55,804 nt of DNA from Clostridiales bacterium (GTDB lineage: Bacteria; Bacillota; Clostridia; Christensenellales; Aristaeellaceae): the NCBI GenBank assembly GCA_022787165.1, contig JALFVL010000008.1:1-55804 (forward strand), given 5' to 3'. Shown here piece by piece: positions 45,454 through 55,804 of this stretch; position 1 is the stretch's first letter; each line of letters begins with the position of its first letter. A program made the translations under genes and the position numbers. A model generated the notes under the pieces. The model saw only the letters and a program-made list of their open reading frames with translations. It was not told where the DNA came from and did not search any database.

Positions 45454-47898
45454 ATGATTGCCCATGTCAGAGCCTCGGATGGCGCGCTACAGCCGCTGAA
45501 GGCGCATTGCGAAAACGTCAGCATGCTCTGCGCGCGCGCCGGTGAGGCCGCCGGTCTGACGCAGACCGCGGGGCTCATCGGCCTGCTGCACGATATGGGA
45601 AAGGCGACGCGGGCGTTTGAAGCGTATCTGCGCGCTGCCGCCTGCGCCGCGGACAGGCAGACGTCGCCGCATCCTCATGCGCCGGCCGGCGCGATATACG
45701 CTTATCGCCGCTGGTTCTTGAAGCCGGGTGTTTCCGCTGCCGGGCGGGTGACGGCGCAGCTCATCTCGCTGTGCATCCTGGGCCACCATGCGGGGCTGTG
45801 CGACTGTCTGGATGAAAAGGGCAAGTCGCCCTATATCGAGCAGATGAAGGATCCGAAGAACCTCTTCCATTACGATGAGGCCAGCAGCTGGTTCCTTGAA
45901 AACGTCGCTGATGAAGCGGAGCTGGACGCGCGTTTCGCCGCGGCCTGCGGCGAGATCGGGCGCTGCCTCGCCGCCTTCCGCGAGCGCGTTCCCGACAAGG
46001 CCGAGCAGAATTTCCGCCTGGGCATGACCGGCCGCCTGCTGCTCAGCTGCCTCGTCGACGCCGATCGCTGGGATTCCGCGTGCTTTGAATACGGCCAGGA
46101 TGCCCTCGCCGGGCCTGCGCCTGCGCCCGACTGGGATGCGCTCCTTGAAACCTTTGAAGCCTATCGCAAGGCCCATCTGAACGGCACGGGGGAAATCAAC
46201 CGCATCCGCGCAGAGATTTCCGATATTTGCTGGGAAAAAGCCGGCTCCGCGCCCGGTATCTTCACGCTCAGCGTACCCACGGGCGGCGGCAAGACGTTTT
46301 CCAGCTTGCGCTTTGCGCTCAGGCATGCGATAACGAACGGACAGCGCCGAATCTTCTACATCATCCCCTACAACACCATCCTCGACCAGAACGCCAGGGA
46401 TATCCGCGAGGCGCTGGGCGATTCCCCCTCCATCCTCGAGCACCACGCCAACGTCGTCCCCGAGCCGCGCGACGGCCGCAGCCAGGAGGAGGAGCAGGAG
46501 GCCTACAAGCGCCTGACCGAGCGCTGGGACAGCGACATCATCCTGACCAGCATGGTGCAGTTCCTCAACGCCTGCTATGCTGCGCCCAACACGGATGCCA
46601 GACGGCTGCACAGGCTGACCGGCGCTGTGCTGATCTTTGACGAGGTTCAGGCGCTGCCCAAGCACTGCAAGACGCTGTTTGAGCGCGCGATCCGGTTTCT
46701 CAGCGCCGAGTGCGGCAGCACCGTCGTGCTCTGCACGGCGACACAGCCGCGCCTGGCGCTCTCGAGCGCGCCTGTCGAGCTGATGCCCGACGTCGGGGCG
46801 CTCTGCGAGCGGCTCAAGCGCGTGCGCTATCTTCCCGAGCTGAACGCTGTCCGGGACGCGGAGGACGCCGCCGCGCGCATCGCGCAGATGCTCAAGAGCC
46901 GCTCCGTGCTGACCATCGTCAACACGAAGGCGACGGCGCGTGCGGTCTTTGACGAGGTTCGCGCTCGGCTCGCGGAGCAGGATATCCCGCTCGCCGACGC
47001 CTGCCTCTCCCTGCCTGAGGATGCGCTGGCGGAGGCCGCGCAGACCTGCCCGGCCGGCCATGTGCTGTGCGTCTACCTGAGCACGCTGCTCTGCCCAGCG
47101 CATCGCAAGAGGCTGATTGCGCGCATCAAGGCCTGGCTCAGGGCGGGCAAGCGCGTGTTCTGCGTCTCCACGGCGCTCATCGAAGCCGGCATCAACGTCA
47201 GCTTCCCCACCGTCATTCGCAGTCTGGCCGGGCTGCCCAGCATCGTGCAGGCCGCGGGCCGTGCCAACCGCAACATGGAGTATGGCGAGGGCGAGGTCCA
47301 TGTCTGGGACTTTCACGAGGAGGGACTTTCATTCCTGCCGGATATCCAGAATGGCGCAGATGTCACCCGCTCCCTGCTGCATCAGGAGGGGATTTCTTCC
47401 GCGATGGATGCCCCGACGGCTCTGGCGCAGTATTTTCTCCGGGAGGAGGACTATGTTCGCGAATACCAGAACTATCCCCTTCCCGACCTGAACGACGATG
47501 CATGCAACCTCCTCGCCTCAAACGAAAACCGCCGCAGCAAGGCGAAAATGTACAAATCCACGCAGGCGCTCATGCTGCGCCAGAGCTTCCGCTCGGTCGC
47601 CACGAACTTTGAGGTCATCCCCGATCAGACGAGGGCCGTTCTCGTCCCCTTCATGGAGGGCGCGGCGCTCATCGCCGCGCTGAACGGCCGGCACACCATG
47701 CGCGAGGAAATCCGGCTGCTGCGCCGGGCACAGGCGTACAGCGTCAGCGTCTACCCGGGGGATTACGAGCGGCTCAGCGACGCCAATGCGCTGTATGCCG
47801 TCGGGGAGAGCGGCGCGATTGCCCTCGGAGAGGGGTACTATGACGAGGAGAGCGGGCTGCGGGTGGAGCAGAAGAAGCTGCGCTTTCTCGAATTTTGA
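45454..47898 (+). CDS. cas3: Type I-C CRISPR helicase-nuclease Cas3
   Basis: 814 aa. Recruited by Cascade to an R-loop; nicks and degrades the displaced strand. HD nuclease domain at about 1-215 with the HD pair in GLLHDMGKATRAF (His46, Asp47) and LGHHAGL. SF2 helicase from about 255: motif I VPTGGGKTFS (Lys280), HHANVV..., motif II FDEVQAL (Asp396-Glu397, a DEVQ variant), motif III TATQPRL, and motif VI-like region QAAGRANRN. Length and fusion are as in type I-C. It has its own promoter and is separated by 240 nt from cas5, a gap that holds the mini-CRISPR. Confidence 0.95.
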   Translation: MIAHVRASDGALQPLKAHCENVSMLCARAGEAAGLTQTAGLIGLLHDMGKATRAFEAYLRAAACAADRQTSPHPHAPAGAIYAYRRWFLKPGVSAAGRVTAQLISLCILGHHAGLCDCLDEKGKSPYIEQMKDPKNLFHYDEASSWFLENVADEAELDARFAAACGEIGRCLAAFRERVPDKAEQNFRLGMTGRLLLSCLVDADRWDSACFEYGQDALAGPAPAPDWDALLETFEAYRKAHLNGTGEINRIRAEISDICWEKAGSAPGIFTLSVPTGGGKTFSSLRFALRHAITNGQRRIFYIIPYNTILDQNARDIREALGDSPSILEHHANVVPEPRDGRSQEEEQEAYKRLTERWDSDIILTSMVQFLNACYAAPNTDARRLHRLTGAVLIFDEVQALPKHCKTLFERAIRFLSAECGSTVVLCTATQPRLALSSAPVELMPDVGALCERLKRVRYLPELNAVRDAEDAAARIAQMLKSRSVLTIVNTKATARAVFDEVRARLAEQDIPLADACLSLPEDALAEAAQTCPAGHVLCVYLSTLLCPAHRKRLIARIKAWLRAGKRVFCVSTALIEAGINVSFPTVIRSLAGLPSIVQAAGRANRNMEYGEGEVHVWDFHEEGLSFLPDIQNGADVTRSLLHQEGISSAMDAPTALAQYFLREEDYVREYQNYPLPDLNDDACNLLASNENRRSKAKMYKSTQALMLRQSFRSVATNFEVIPDQTRAVLVPFMEGAALIAALNGRHTMREEIRLLRRAQAYSVSVYPGDYERLSDANALYAVGESGAIALGEGYYDEESGLRVEQKKLRFLEF

Positions 47899-47928
47899 AA
47901 AAAATAGCCCTTTTTTCTACTATGACGG

Positions 47929-47957
47929 TTGAAAAATGAATGATGTCGTGTTATACT
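47929..47957 (+). promoter_or_regulatory. Promoter of the Cascade/adaptation operon, predicted guide-RNA target
   Basis: TTGAAA (47929-47934), 17 nt, TATACT (47952-47957). It is the only good plus-strand promoter before cas5. The -35 lies in a sequence (47925-47935) that matches 10 of the first 11 positions of the mini-CRISPR spacer. Confidence 0.7.
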
Positions 47958-47966
47958 GCAATCAAC

Positions 47967-48056
47967 AGAAAAGGATGCCGCCTCTCAGCGACATCCTCCT
48001 CAGCCGAAATATCCCTGTTTTCAACTGTATTTCAATCCACGCCACGAGATGGCGAC
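47967..48056 (-). ncRNA. Single-spacer mini-CRISPR RNA (CreR/CreA-like guide)
   Basis: A degenerate repeat on the minus strand (48056-48029) keeps the first five bases GTCGC and the last 14 bases GCGTGGATTGAAAT of the array repeat but has a different, shorter hairpin (CGCCA/TGGCG). The 11-nt 5' handle TGGATTGAAAT expected after Cas5c cleavage is intact. A 36-nt spacer follows (48028-47993), then GTCGCT opening a second degenerate repeat that is also the arm of an intrinsic terminator: GGATGTCGC/GCGGCATCC and TTTTC. A promoter lies upstream, with the predicted start at the first repeat base. Expected RNA about 90 nt. Confidence 0.75.
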
Positions 48057-48062
48057 TTTGAA

Positions 48063-48091
48063 ATTATACCCTATCTTCCTCCTTCGGGCAA
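48063..48091 (-). promoter_or_regulatory. Promoter of the mini-CRISPR RNA
   Basis: On the minus strand TTGCCC (48086-48091), 17 nt, TATAAT (48063-48068). The -10 box ends 7 nt before the first base of the degenerate repeat. Confidence 0.75.
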
Positions 48092-48138
48092 GAGGCGGCA
48101 TCCTTTTCTCCATTTTTCGTACAAGAAGGTGAAGCAGA

Positions 48139-48918
48139 TTGAAAGACAAAACCCGCAATTCCGTCGAGTACAGGGTCTGGGGGCGCTATGCGCTCTTCAG
48201 CGACAGCCTCGTGCGCATGGGCGGCGAGCGCTCCTCCTACCTTGTGCCCACCTATCAGGCACTCAAAAGTATAACAGAACAAATTTATTGGAAGCCCAGC
48301 ATCCTTTGGCTTGTCGATTCCGTCCGCATCCTGAATCCCATCCAGACGGAGAGCAAGAGCATACGGCCCATCAGCTATGACGGGCAGCCCAACACCCTCT
48401 CCATCTACACCTACCTCGTCAATCCATGCTACGAGGTCCGCGCGCATTTCATCGCCAACCCCTACCGCACCGAGCCCGACCTCATCGCGGACGGGCAGAA
48501 CGAGAACAAGCACCACAACATCGCCAGGCGCATGGTCGCCCGGGGTGGACGGCGCGATATCTTTCTGGGCACGCGGGAGTGCCAGGCCTATGTGGAGCCC
48601 TGCGTGTACGGAGAAGGCGCGGGGTACTACGACGATCGCGGCGAAATCGATCTGGGCGTGATGTTCCATTCCTTCGCCTATCCCGACGAGACGGGCAGGG
48701 AGGAGCTGGGCGTGCGTCTCTGGCACGCCAGGATGAACCACGGCGAGATCGTCTTTCCTGCGCCGCAGGATTGCCCGCCGGAGATGTACCGCCGCATCCG
48801 GCCGATGAAGCCCAAGGCCTTCGGCGGAAAATACGGCAACTTCTCGGGCCTGCAGGAGGACGCGCTGGCGGATGAGCTGTGCGGGCCCTTCCCCGAAGGA
48901 GGTGAAGCGGACGGATGA
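48139..48918 (+). CDS. cas5c: Type I-C Cas5 (Cas5c/Cas5d), crRNA endoribonuclease
   Basis: 259 aa, TTG start behind AAGAAGG. In type I-C Cas5 both cleaves pre-crRNA in the repeat (Cas6 is absent) and caps the 5' end of the crRNA in Cascade. The N-terminal ferredoxin-like fold begins NSVEYRVWGRYALFSDSLVRMGGERSSY; GQNENKHHN and GTRECQAYVEP are family segments. No cas6 gene is in the locus, which fits this role. The stop overlaps the cas8 start (ATGA). It lies directly after the mini-CRISPR. Confidence 0.93.
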   Translation: MKDKTRNSVEYRVWGRYALFSDSLVRMGGERSSYLVPTYQALKSITEQIYWKPSILWLVDSVRILNPIQTESKSIRPISYDGQPNTLSIYTYLVNPCYEVRAHFIANPYRTEPDLIADGQNENKHHNIARRMVARGGRRDIFLGTRECQAYVEPCVYGEGAGYYDDRGEIDLGVMFHSFAYPDETGREELGVRLWHARMNHGEIVFPAPQDCPPEMYRRIRPMKPKAFGGKYGNFSGLQEDALADELCGPFPEGGEADG

Positions 48919-51560
48919 GCTGGATGCAAAAGCTGTGCGCCGTCTACGACAGCGTCATCAACACGGCAGGCGCGCAGGGGCAAAGCCCGCTGTTGCCCGT
49001 CGGCTTTACCCAGAAGACGATCAAGGTCAACATCATCCTCTCTCCCGAAGGGCGGTTTGTCACCGCGCAGCTCATCCCCGAGGAGGATCAGCTCTGCGCC
49101 GTGCCCAGCACGCCGCAGGCGGAGGGGCGAACCGGCGACAACGGCGCGCCCTTCCCGCTCGCCGATCAGTTCAAATACCTGCTGACCGATGAGGGAGCGG
49201 AGAATCCCCGATTTGAAAGCTATCTGCGCCAGCTTGCGGCGTGGAGCGAAAGCCAGGACGCGCCGTCGTGCCTGCGCACCCTGCGGGCGTATCTGGAAAA
49301 GCGGACGCTCTGCGCCGATCTGGCGGGGGTGCCTGGACTCAAGCTCAAGCTCCACAAGGACGAGGCCGCGAAGGACGGCAAAGGCGCGGATGCCAAGAGC
49401 ATTGCCTGCTTCAGCATCGAATATCCCGACGAGGAAAACCGGCTCTGGATGCGCCATGATGTGCGCGAGAGCTGGAGCCGCCATCTTTCCTCTCTCTCCG
49501 GAGGGGAAACCGCGCTGTGCTACGTCACCGGCGAGCAGCTGCCCACGCTGGCCAAGCATCCCAAGCTGCTGGGCAATGCCAAGCTGATTTCCTCCGACGA
49601 CGCGGGCTTCCCCTTCCGCTATAAGGGCCGCTTCGTCGAGGATGGCAGCGCCGCCACGGCCAGCACGCTCGCCTCCGTCAAGGCGCATAACGCGCTCAAG
49701 TGGCTGCTGGAGCATCAGGGCTTCCGTCGGTTTGGCATGGTTTTTGTCGGATGGAATGTCGATTGCCCGCCGCTTCCCGCGTCCATCGTCAGCGACGACT
49801 GGTCTCCCGACGAGGAGCCGGATGCGCAGGAGGACGCCGCGCGCCAGCCCGACACGCTGGAGGCATACGTCAACGCGCTGTTCAAGGCGATGGGCGGCAA
49901 CGCAAACGATCTGCAAAGCGTGTCCGATCCCAACGACCTGACGGAGGAATATGCCGGGCGCATCGCCGGCGTCGTCCTGCTCGGATTGCAGGCGGCGACG
50001 CCGGGGCGCATGTCCATCACCTATTATCAGGAGATGCCCGGCAATCAGCTTGTCGAGCGCGTGAATGCGTGGCATCGCGACATGCGCTGGAGGATGCGGG
50101 ACAGCAAGCATCCCGACCGCGCGCCGAAGTGGAGGGAAATCTGCGAGGCCGTCATGGGCGCCGACGCCGTGCAGACCGCCCGGGCCGACTTCAAGGCGGA
50201 CAAATCCGCCACCAAGCTCATGCGCGAGATGCAGCTGCGCTTGCTGCATTGCACGGTCAACGGCGCGGCGCTGCCGCAGGACATGGTTGATTCGGCCTTT
50301 GCCCGGGCGGTTTCTCCGCTCTCCTTCACCGATTCCAAGGGCAAGTGGCAGGGCTTTGCGTGGGCGCAGTGCATGGCTGCCGCCTGCGCGATGATCCGCA
50401 AGCACCTGCTCGACCAGCCGCGGCCCTTCGAGGTGACGCCCGAGCTCGACCCGGCGCTGCGCAGCCGCGATTATCTCTACGGCCGCCTGCTGGGCGTCGC
50501 GCATCAAATCGAACAGACCGCCAGCCAACAGCCGGAGGACAAGTGGAATTCCATCCGGATGATGGCGCAGCTCGTTCAGCGGCCGTATGATACCTGGCCC
50601 AAGCTCTGGCTCAAGCTGATGCCGTACCTGGGCAGCATCGGCGATCAGGCTCGCAAGCCCGAGGATGCCGCGAAAAAACGATCCGATGCCCGCCGGTTTC
50701 AGCTCCTGCTGGGGCAGGTTGAAAGCCTGTTCACCCCGGAGGATCGCGTGGACACGCGCCCGCTCTCCTACCTGTTCCTCGTCGGATACTTCGCGCAGAG
50801 CCGAAGCTTCAGACTGAGCGGCGAGGGACGCCCGTTTGCGCCGCCCACGACGCGGGACGAGCTCTACGGCTGCCTGCTGGCCGTCGCGGATGACTGCGAG
50901 TGGAACGCCGGGGTGCTCCCGGATGGGAAAAACAGCCGGGATGGGCGAACCAACGCCTTGGGGATGATGGGCGCGCTTGCCGCCGCGCCCGCCAGAACGT
51001 GGCAGCAGATTCACGACAGGCTGATCCCCTATCTGGAGAAGTCCGGCGTGCGCGCGGCGCGGGAGGCGCAGCGCCTGCTGCAAAGAATCGAGCAGGGCTT
51101 TTCCGCAGAGGAACGCGCATCGGACAGGCCGCTGGGCAGTCTCTTCCTGCACGGCTATCTGTGCATGCGGCTCGCGCTGGCGCAGCATGCGCTCGATCTC
51201 AAGGCATGGGCGCCCGCCGGCCGCGCTTCGGCGGCGCCCGATACCCGCGAGGCGGCCTTCGGCGCGCTGCTCGCGCTGGAAAACGATGTGGAGCGCCGCG
51301 TGCTCGACCTCGAGGCGGGCGAAGAAAACCGCCCCAGCAACGCCATGCGCTTCCTGCCGCGTGCCGCCCAGCGTCCCAATGAGGTCTGGGGCTACCTGCG
51401 CGAGCGGATGAGGCCCTACGAAAACAAGCTCTGGATGGCCGGGAGCGTCCGCCGGGAGCTTGACGCGCTCCATGCGCTGATTGTGCAGAAGGGCTTTGAT
51501 ACCGACGAGCCGCTTCGCCCGGAATACCTGCATTTCTTCTACCTGTACAGCGACCATTGA
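48915..51560 (+). CDS. cas8c: Type I-C Cas8c with three tandem C-terminal Cas11-like domains
   Basis: 881 aa, about 260 longer than usual for Csd1/Cas8c (roughly 560-640). Residues 1-515 are the usual PAM-recognising part (KIDxx-type start MSWMQKLCAVYDSVI, LLSPEGRFVTAQLIPE, CYVTGEQLPTLAKHPK, FRRFGMVFVGWN). The normal C-terminal domain is then present three times, starting YGRLLGVAHQIEQ (522), YGCLLAVADDCEW (651) and FGALLALENDVER (782). Each copy has N-x-x-x-MM (or RFL), a xPxxxW segment and PYL/PYEN, then DxRPL-S/G-xLFL-x-GY or its degraded form. In the related complexes this domain forms the inner belly and is also made alone as Cas11c. GGAGGTG precedes the ATG. Confidence 0.92.
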   Translation: MSWMQKLCAVYDSVINTAGAQGQSPLLPVGFTQKTIKVNIILSPEGRFVTAQLIPEEDQLCAVPSTPQAEGRTGDNGAPFPLADQFKYLLTDEGAENPRFESYLRQLAAWSESQDAPSCLRTLRAYLEKRTLCADLAGVPGLKLKLHKDEAAKDGKGADAKSIACFSIEYPDEENRLWMRHDVRESWSRHLSSLSGGETALCYVTGEQLPTLAKHPKLLGNAKLISSDDAGFPFRYKGRFVEDGSAATASTLASVKAHNALKWLLEHQGFRRFGMVFVGWNVDCPPLPASIVSDDWSPDEEPDAQEDAARQPDTLEAYVNALFKAMGGNANDLQSVSDPNDLTEEYAGRIAGVVLLGLQAATPGRMSITYYQEMPGNQLVERVNAWHRDMRWRMRDSKHPDRAPKWREICEAVMGADAVQTARADFKADKSATKLMREMQLRLLHCTVNGAALPQDMVDSAFARAVSPLSFTDSKGKWQGFAWAQCMAAACAMIRKHLLDQPRPFEVTPELDPALRSRDYLYGRLLGVAHQIEQTASQQPEDKWNSIRMMAQLVQRPYDTWPKLWLKLMPYLGSIGDQARKPEDAAKKRSDARRFQLLLGQVESLFTPEDRVDTRPLSYLFLVGYFAQSRSFRLSGEGRPFAPPTTRDELYGCLLAVADDCEWNAGVLPDGKNSRDGRTNALGMMGALAAAPARTWQQIHDRLIPYLEKSGVRAAREAQRLLQRIEQGFSAEERASDRPLGSLFLHGYLCMRLALAQHALDLKAWAPAGRASAAPDTREAAFGALLALENDVERRVLDLEAGEENRPSNAMRFLPRAAQRPNEVWGYLRERMRPYENKLWMAGSVRRELDALHALIVQKGFDTDEPLRPEYLHFFYLYSDH

Positions 51561-54660: not shown

Positions 54661-55804
54661 GTCGCTCCCCACGCGGGGAGCGTGGATTGAAACCGATGAC
54701 GGCGGTGCCTGGAGCGAGGACGCCGGGTCGCTCCCCACGCGGGGAGCGTGGATTGAAACAAACTTCGACAAATTGATGAACGCGCTGGCGACGGTCGCTC
54801 CCCACGCGGGGAGCGTGGATTGAAATTGAATGTAACTGAGCCGCAACGTAACGCGCAGGGGTCGCTCCCCACGCGGGGAGCGTGGATTGAAATATCACGT
54901 TACGCTTGTGCCTGACGTAAGAATGTATGTCGCTCCCCACGCGGGGAGCGTGGATTGAAATAAACTGGGCTTGCGTCATCTGCCCGCTCTGCAAGAGTCG
55001 CTCCCCACGCGGGGAGCGTGGATTGAAATTTTTTACCAAGCATAATCTGCTGCGCCCAAATCGTCGCTCCCCACGCGGGGAGCGTGGATTGAAATGAGGC
55101 CCTTCTGTTTAACGGAAACGTTATCGGGCCGTCGCTCCCCACGCGGGGAGCGTGGATTGAAATTGATGTGGGCGCACTGGAGGCATTAGACGGCGCTGGG
55201 TCGCTCCCCACGCGGGGAGCGTGGATTGAAATGACCGGCCGCAGCACGAAGCCACCCCGGGCCGCGTCGCTCCCCACGCGGGGAGCGTGGATTGAAATAC
55301 TCTGTTTGTGGAAATGGCTGTAACGAACCTGGTCGCTCCCCACGCGGGGAGCGTGGATTGAAATAAGGCCCTTCTGTTTAACGGAAACGTTATCGGGCGT
55401 CGCTCCCCACGCGGGGAGCGTGGATTGAAATTCGTCGATCGAATCGGCAGAGTCATTATTCGTTCGTCGCTCCCCACGCGGGGAGCGTGGATTGAAATAG
55501 CTTCGGCCGGTTGTGAAGATGGAAACTGATAAGTCGCTCCCCACGCGGGGAGCGTGGATTGAAATTTCGTTAATAAGGACGTCGAGCCGAATATTGATGT
55601 CGCTCCCCACGCGGGGAGCGTGGATTGAAATCATCGTCGACGCGCATAGCCACGCAAAGGCGACGGGTCGCTCCCCACGCGGGGAGCGTGGATTGAAATT
55701 TGGAACATTGAACGATACCTATACGACACAGGAAGTCGCTCCCCACGCGGGGAGCGTGGATTGAAATTGATGTTGTTTTCCGCAAAACTTCGCCGCTTTT
55801 CCGT
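54661..55804 (+). CRISPR. Type I-C CRISPR array, 17 repeats, continuing past the window
   Basis: The repeat is 33 nt, from GTCGCTCCCC through a hairpin CGCTCCCC-ACGC-GGGGAGCG to the handle TGGATTGAAAT. Repeats start at 54661, 54727, 54794, 54861, 54929, 54997, 55063, 55131, 55200, 55266, 55332, 55399, 55466, 55533, 55599, 55667 and 55735. The 16 complete spacers are 33-36 nt; a 17th begins at 55768, and the final GT at 55803-55804 could open another repeat. Repeats 1 and 2 end in C, all others in T; the body is invariant. Spacers 7 and 11 are nearly identical. Confidence 0.99.

Follow-up and report, generated by a model that had tools for sequence, protein, structure and literature searches.

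The type I-C CRISPR-Cas locus in the stretch of DNA analysed here (the window, all 55,804 nucleotides of it) carries on its minus strand, in the gap between cas3 and cas5c, a small crRNA-like gene that is probably a CreR-type autorepressor of the cas genes. At the level of sequence the gene has a promoter and a terminator of its own, and it sits outside the CRISPR array, between intact cas genes. A first-pass annotation of the window had likened its layout to that of the regulatory RNAs CreR and CreA, and the likeness has held up: the same layout is found in 34 other type I-C loci, with guide and target matched within each.

Profile searches place the genes of the window in the order cas3, cas5c, cas8c, cas7, cas4, cas1 and cas2; the array follows, and the locus is of type I-C. 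The features that bear on the argument are the following.

45454..47898, plus strand: cas3 (NCBIfam HD domain above its cut-off, helicase-core models below theirs)
47902..47923, minus strand: proposed protospacer (guide match 18/22; mismatches at 2, 6, 12 and 17)
47924..47926, minus strand: proposed PAM, GTC (in relatives, TTC 31/34 and CTC 3/34)
47929..47957, plus strand: putative promoter TTGAAA-17-TATACT with extended TG (10/12 consensus)
47967..48109, no strand: perfect 19-bp inverted repeat bracketing the creR-like gene (47967-47985 and 48091-48109; arms 105 nt apart)
47968..48001, minus strand: intrinsic-terminator-like hairpin of the creR-like gene (15-pair stem, by folding)
47987..47992, minus strand: GTCGCT, possible remnant of a second pseudo-repeat inside the terminator hairpin (equal to the first six bases of the array repeat)
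47993..48028, minus strand: pseudo-spacer (guide), 36 nt, similar in length to array spacers
48029..48056, minus strand: first pseudo-repeat GTCGCCATCTCGTGGCGTGGATTGAAAT (28 nt), a short hairpin plus the 11-nt Cas5c handle TGGATTGAAAT (fold -7.4 kcal/mol)
48063..48091, minus strand: promoter of the creR-like gene, -35 TTGCCC at 48091-48086, 17 nt, -10 TATAAT at 48068-48063 (10/12 consensus)
48139..48918, plus strand: cas5c, the crRNA-processing subunit in I-C (TIGR01876, 212 bits against a cut-off of 85)
48915..51560, plus strand: cas8c with three tandem C-terminal units (TIGR01863)
54661..55804, plus strand: CRISPR array, 17 repeats up to the end of the window (by repeat comparison)

Anatomy of the crRNA-like gene

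All the parts that the first-pass annotation placed on the minus strand (promoter, pseudo-repeat, spacer, GTCGCT and terminator-like hairpin) are found at 48091-47967. The promoter is as it was described, and six bases separate its TATAAT from the pseudo-repeat; the predicted start of the transcript is the pseudo-repeat's first base or a base close to it. A promoter scan of 600 bases gave 4 sites where 0.5 would be expected from shuffles, and two of these reach 10/12, one on each strand. The pseudo-repeat contains both the short stem and the full handle attributed to it. Most copies of the array repeat read GTCGCTCCCCACGCGGGGAGCGTGGATTGAAAT, and the stem of that repeat is indeed gone from the pseudo-repeat; however, a shorter, different stem replaces it, so the earlier claim of a lost array hairpin is right only in part. 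The guide has the size of an array spacer, as claimed: counted in the same way, after GAAA, it is 37 nt long and the 16 complete spacers of the array are 34-37 nt.

The GTCGCT motif was said to be merged into a terminator, and it does overlap the 15-pair stem. A scan for terminators found 1 site against 0.7 expected from shuffles, an uninformative count, so the call rests on the stem and its place. The predicted transcript as a whole folds with -38.9 kcal/mol (z -3.4), and an equally good fold was reached by 1 of 200 shuffles. A search of Rfam gave a single match, whose 19.9 bits fall well short of the gathering score (97).

The 19-bp inverted repeat also forms the outer stem of a predicted plus-strand leader RNA (182 nt, -53.8 kcal/mol, z -3.8), where it may act as an attenuator or a stabiliser, or be a remnant. 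The possibility that the repeat marks the ends of an invertible or transposable element was considered and set aside: the assembly has one copy of the gap, and by eye there is no target duplication.

Elements of the same kind in other type I-C loci

The DNA of the element and its gap, when searched for in 60 genomes, was found in the window only and was absent from the 59 relatives, as expected, because a short RNA gene evolves fast. Relatives were therefore compared by layout. Loci were fetched by Cas5c similarity (the best 80 of 192, with 20 more from 396 genomes of the order and 4 from 29 genomes of the genus), and the fetches L003-L006 were replaced by the longer L130-L133. There were 105 loci including the window, 104 after removal of L117 (a duplicate of L064), and hence 103 other unique loci. 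Six plasmid loci, from 35 matching records, were looked at apart from the 104.

Non-array sequences near cas3 and cas5c with at most 2 mismatches from GTGGATTGAAA were taken as candidate handles. The sequence following each handle was then matched against both strands of the 1.2 kb around it. A candidate passed if nt 1-5 and 7-11 all matched a site flanked by TTC or CTC, or if 9 of these 10 matched beside TTC and at least 13/14 matched when nt 13-16 were included. The seed positions and the TTC PAM come from the rule given for CreA in excerpts of PMC8501985 (seed nt 1-5 and 7-11, TTC PAM); the 9/10 clause, the admission of CTC and the 2-mismatch limit on the handle were set after first looks at the data. 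L019, whose guide is masked, and L121, which scores 14/14 but beside TTT, were left out of the count, and the many raw match rows that came from repeats matching repeats were not used.

By this rule, a minus-strand pseudo-repeat with a matched target is present in 34 of the 103 loci. The match covers all ten seed positions in 28 of them (25 with TTC, 3 with CTC) and nine positions in 6, all with TTC. The other 69 loci show no element by the same rule, and none of the 46 plus-strand handles, which serve as the control, passes. Seventeen minus-strand handles failed, including that of the window (GTC) and one of L121 (TTT); most of the others have 1-2 mismatches from the handle and no close target. 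None of the six plasmid loci passes either, the nearest being L164 (TTC, 9/10 in the seed, 10/14 overall).

The profile of matches along the 34 pairs has to be read with the rule in mind, which selects for positions 1-5 and 7-11 and, only in the six 9/10 cases, for 13-16, leaving 6, 12 and 17 onward unselected. Identity is found in 34 pairs at each of nt 1-5, in 4 at nt 6, in 32-34 at nt 7-11, in 13 at nt 12, in 34 at nt 13, in 28-30 at nt 14-16 and in 19 at nt 17, with background beyond. Position 6 is thus mismatched in 30/34 pairs. In an earlier set of 23 loci (22 relatives and the window), a guide finds a TTC site with 10/10 in its own gap in 20/23 cases, as against 8 of 506 for a foreign guide, and guides shifted by 1-3 nt find none.

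There are 31 distinct seeds among the 34 elements, each matching its own target, so guide and target change together. The first-pass annotation had looked to conservation of handle and spacer in relatives as a check. The handle does recur, but the spacer is not conserved, and a test so framed was partly mis-set, because the spacer changes together with its target.

Other parts of the gene recur as well. Stem positions of the pseudo-repeats are paired in 118 of 136 cells, where 2000 shuffles gave a mean of 90.5 and a maximum of 104; some elements are misanchored in this count, which should have depressed its score. The handle and the covarying stem fit an RNA that would be cut by a Cas protein and carried by Cascade. 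A TATAAT-like hexamer lies 4-8 nt before the pseudo-repeat in 27/34 elements (6/34 in the shuffled control). In 33 of the 34 relatives, no more than 5 shuffles in 100 equal the hairpin after the guide, a per-element comparison that replaced a threshold of -8 kcal/mol; all 34 hairpins reach that threshold, and so do 1719 of 3400 shuffles, which makes it uninformative. In the gaps of relatives that were inspected, the single pseudo-repeat leads directly into the hairpin, which sets these genes apart from the CreR genes described for other subtypes.

Since degenerate repeats do occur beside CRISPR arrays, one might take the window's element for a relic of a decayed array, or for a chance resemblance to a repeat, functionless in either case. 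Set against its recurrence in relatives, the controls, the coupling of guide to target and an anatomy ready for transcription, that explanation is scarcely credible.

The placement of the elements follows that of the operon. Twenty-four lie in the cas3-cas5 gap and 10 upstream of cas3, and in all 34 the target lies toward the first cas gene, in 27 of them at most 120 nt from its estimated start. In the gaps inspected (e.g., those of L003, L015 and L081), the protospacer overlaps or precedes a -35 of the TTGAC type. An element occupies the cas3-cas5 gap in 24 of the 30 loci where that gap exceeds 150 nt (by the rule, the window counts with the remaining six) and in none of the 71 where it is shorter.

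Some of the gaps are unusually long. Those of L081 and L049, about 1.0 and 2.2 kb, look by eye like the entry of an insertion sequence beside the element. Two others contain small frames between the target and cas5c, of 72 and 75 amino acids (L011, 9692-9910; L022, 9683-9910); the element may repress them as its cargo, in the manner of CrePA.

L087 and L110, the closest by Cas5c among the genomes searched (67% identity), have a doubtful pseudo-repeat and no target, the best match in register being 9/14; other registers in L087 give at most 10/14. L007, which shares with the window an unusual Cas8c, has its element upstream of cas3, with a CTC PAM. Members of the window's own genus carry distant I-C systems (Cas5c identity 32-43% over the matched part), and three of these, L130, L131 and L133, each have in the cas3-cas5 gap a creR-like element of their own with 10/10 and TTC. 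The fourth, L132, has none by the rule.

The unusual Cas8c is an observation in its own right. Three tandem copies of the C-terminal unit occur in the proteins of the window (881 aa), L110 (907) and L007 (868). The median length of Cas8c in 92 loci is 635 aa, and 87 have one copy; two that were counted as having two copies look like split hits of one. The separate small subunit Cas11c is known to be made from an internal start in cas8c. An internal Shine-Dalgarno sequence and start codon were found near the beginning of the C-terminal unit in 74 of the 87 single-copy genes (7/87 in a control window) and in 0 of the 3 triple-copy genes. The I-C Cascade has been described, in excerpts of PMC7684278, as containing one Cas8c and two Cas11c identical to the C terminus of Cas8c. 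From that stoichiometry, this clade seems to have fused both small subunits onto Cas8c. No paper title on such a fusion appeared among the matches listed in the literature search, and a sequence search of solved structures gave no relative of the window's Cas8c or of its C-terminal unit.

The proposed target in the window

The first-pass annotation named no target for the guide. We propose one at 47923-47902, beside the plus-strand promoter. The guide pairs with it at nt 1, 3-5, 7-11, 13-16 and 18-22, which amounts to 9/10 in the seed and 13 of the 14 scored positions (nt 1-5, 7-11 and 13-16). That score was reached within the gap by 1 of 3000 shuffled guides, whether shuffled by mono- or dinucleotides, and within 1.4 kb by 0 of 800 mononucleotide and 2 of 800 dinucleotide shuffles. 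Across the 2.49-Mb assembly (90% complete), the pattern NTCACAGTNGAAAANAGGG was sought with up to 2 mismatches: only the proposed target has a single mismatch, and the other matches are the creR-like gene itself and one site with 2 mismatches. Another site, at 47925 on the plus strand, scored lower (10/14, with ATG upstream) and was dropped as a candidate.

With 2 bp between the PAM of the proposed target and the -35 of the plus-strand promoter, a Cascade bound there should block polymerase. That promoter likely serves cas5c-cas8c-cas7-cas4-cas1-cas2 and is likely the thing repressed.

The window nonetheless fails the rule that 34 relatives pass, owing to its GTC PAM and the mismatch at spacer position 2. 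Relative to the creR-like gene, moreover, its target is toward cas3, whereas in 34/34 relatives the target lies toward the first cas gene. The PAM and the mismatch at position 2 keep the assignment uncertain, and the lack of a convincing element in the closest relative also speaks against it. Perhaps creR has lost its function in this lineage, the gene staying intact while the target drifted (to GTC, with a mismatch at 2) and repression disappeared. Failure of the PAM and seed rule is what one would expect in that case, as is the state of the nearest relative, and in a haloarchaeon the change of one base in the seed was enough to inactivate CreA (excerpts of PMC8501985). However, the gene lacks none of its parts (promoter, handle, hairpin, terminator-like stem), and the 18 of 22 target bases that still match make a longer match than the 16-17 usual in relatives. 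A single seed mismatch is found in 6/34 relatives as well, and the CTC PAM of L007 makes a relaxed first PAM base in this clade possible. On balance, loss of function is unlikely.

The PAM preference of the window's system was sought through its array, but no protospacer was identified for the array's spacers. Among phage records, 8 matched the array region, by position mostly at repeats or other arrays, and none was identified as holding a protospacer. Two exact spacer cores in viral contigs yielded none, and a search of 100 genomes with the array spacers gave, to judge from the match table, mostly stretches that cover several repeats, again with no protospacer. Three stretches of viral contigs fitted a Cas5c pattern, and 0 were confirmed.

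Two features of the array may be recorded here. The spacers at 55095-55130 and 55364-55398 are near-identical over their length (99% over 67 nt with a repeat), which suggests repeated acquisition or recombination. Another contig of this genome has a second array-like stretch at one end (L162, G000:C23:11-711), possibly the rest of the array, which the contig boundary would have cut off.

Guides of this sort are also known from toxin pairs, and the transcript repressed in the window might be a small toxic RNA or protein rather than cas mRNA, the creR-like gene then being the CreA of a CreTA or CrePA pair. The 19-bp stem in the plus-strand leader might end a short transcript, short plus-strand frames are present in the leader, and the I-F CreTA lies in a comparable place, the cas3-csy1 gap (excerpts of PMC10097628). 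Yet neither frames nor Pfam reveal a recognisable gene between the 47929 promoter and cas5c. The sole listed plus-strand frame of at least 80 aa (47940-48380, 146 aa) overlaps cas5c out of frame and has no Pfam match; no plus-strand terminator passes the scan; and the nearness of the target to the first cas gene in most relatives points elsewhere. A toxin pair is very unlikely.

Relation to known guide RNAs and proposed mode of action

CreR RNAs, which regulate cas genes, were described by Liu et al. (2023, Cell Host Microbe), as recounted in excerpts of PMC13131331, PMC12948488 and PMC12737573; the first of these has CreR demonstrated for I-B, I-E and V-A, and the last describes it for type I broadly. 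As far as those excerpts go, the window's gene resembles CreR in encoding a crRNA-like RNA beside cas genes, in its limited pairing with a cas promoter and in having no recognised toxin gene. It differs in belonging to subtype I-C, which works without Cas6, and in having its target on the far side of the gene, with a GTC PAM. With CreA of the CreTA pairs of Haloarcula and Halobacterium (I-B) and Acinetobacter (I-F), as excerpted from PMC8501985, PMC9458426 and PMC10097628, it shares one or more pseudo-repeats, the seed at nt 1-5 and 7-11, a PAM beside a promoter and a terminator close after the guide; CreA, however, represses a toxin gene, and none was seen in the window. Solitary repeats outside arrays, I-C included, are common also to Racr, the solitary repeat units of phages such as RacrIC1 (excerpts of PMC10651486), but Racr is phage-borne and inhibitory, whereas the window's element lies in a cas locus and has a guide and a target. 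Identity with Racr, a guide-less repeat decoy on a phage or plasmid, was ruled out by the guide with its target and by the place between intact cas genes.

Titles and abstracts among the matches listed in our search held no creR-like element of type I-C. Shmakov et al. (2023, NAR) reportedly surveyed standalone repeats and mini-arrays, mostly of type I, with spacers that partly match cas promoters, and their survey may list I-C cases. We therefore present the I-C case as a new instance of the known CreR kind and do not claim that such cases are absent from print.

From the parts of the gene, the match of guide to target and the recurrence in relatives, we infer a course that would run from transcription through processing and binding to repression and its relief. 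A one-spacer crRNA-like RNA would be made from its own promoter, antisense to the cas genes. Since I-C has no Cas6, its processing should fall to Cas5c, which would cut the RNA after the pseudo-repeat hairpin; the product, expected to begin with UGGAUUGAAAU and to continue into the 36-nt guide, would be loaded into the type I-C Cascade. Within Cascade, the guide would form a partial duplex with its target, immediately upstream of the likely plus-strand promoter of cas5c. Pairing so limited should not let Cas3 destroy the site, while the bound Cascade should block RNA polymerase and thereby limit the production of Cascade itself. Competition from canonical crRNAs should lift the repression, and so should the removal of Cascade by an anti-CRISPR. 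There is precedent for the central step: according to excerpts of PMC10865793, I-C Cascade without Cas3 represses promoters, with PAMs TTC and TTT, even from an array of a single repeat and a single spacer.

The arrangement in the window invites a variant, tentative and rather unlikely, in which the repressor gene, lying inside and antisense to the leader of its own target operon, takes part in a switch based on mutual inhibition. Transcription of the cas genes from 47929 would run through the creR promoter and make an RNA complementary to CreR; CreR-Cascade, in turn, would shut the 47929 promoter, and the 19-bp inverted repeat would tune the leader. If this is true, the simple autorepression of the relatives would have been turned in this lineage into a switch between two transcripts that inhibit each other.

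As for CreR-type autorepression itself, the case indicates that autoregulation of cas genes by guide RNAs extends to type I-C, among the commonest of subtypes. It also offers a rule for finding such genes, in that a cas3-cas5 gap longer than 150 nt pointed to an element in the present sample, and it supplies 34 guide-target pairs ready for testing, both for binding and repression by I-C Cascade without Cas3 cleavage and for the effects of anti-CRISPRs on cas expression.
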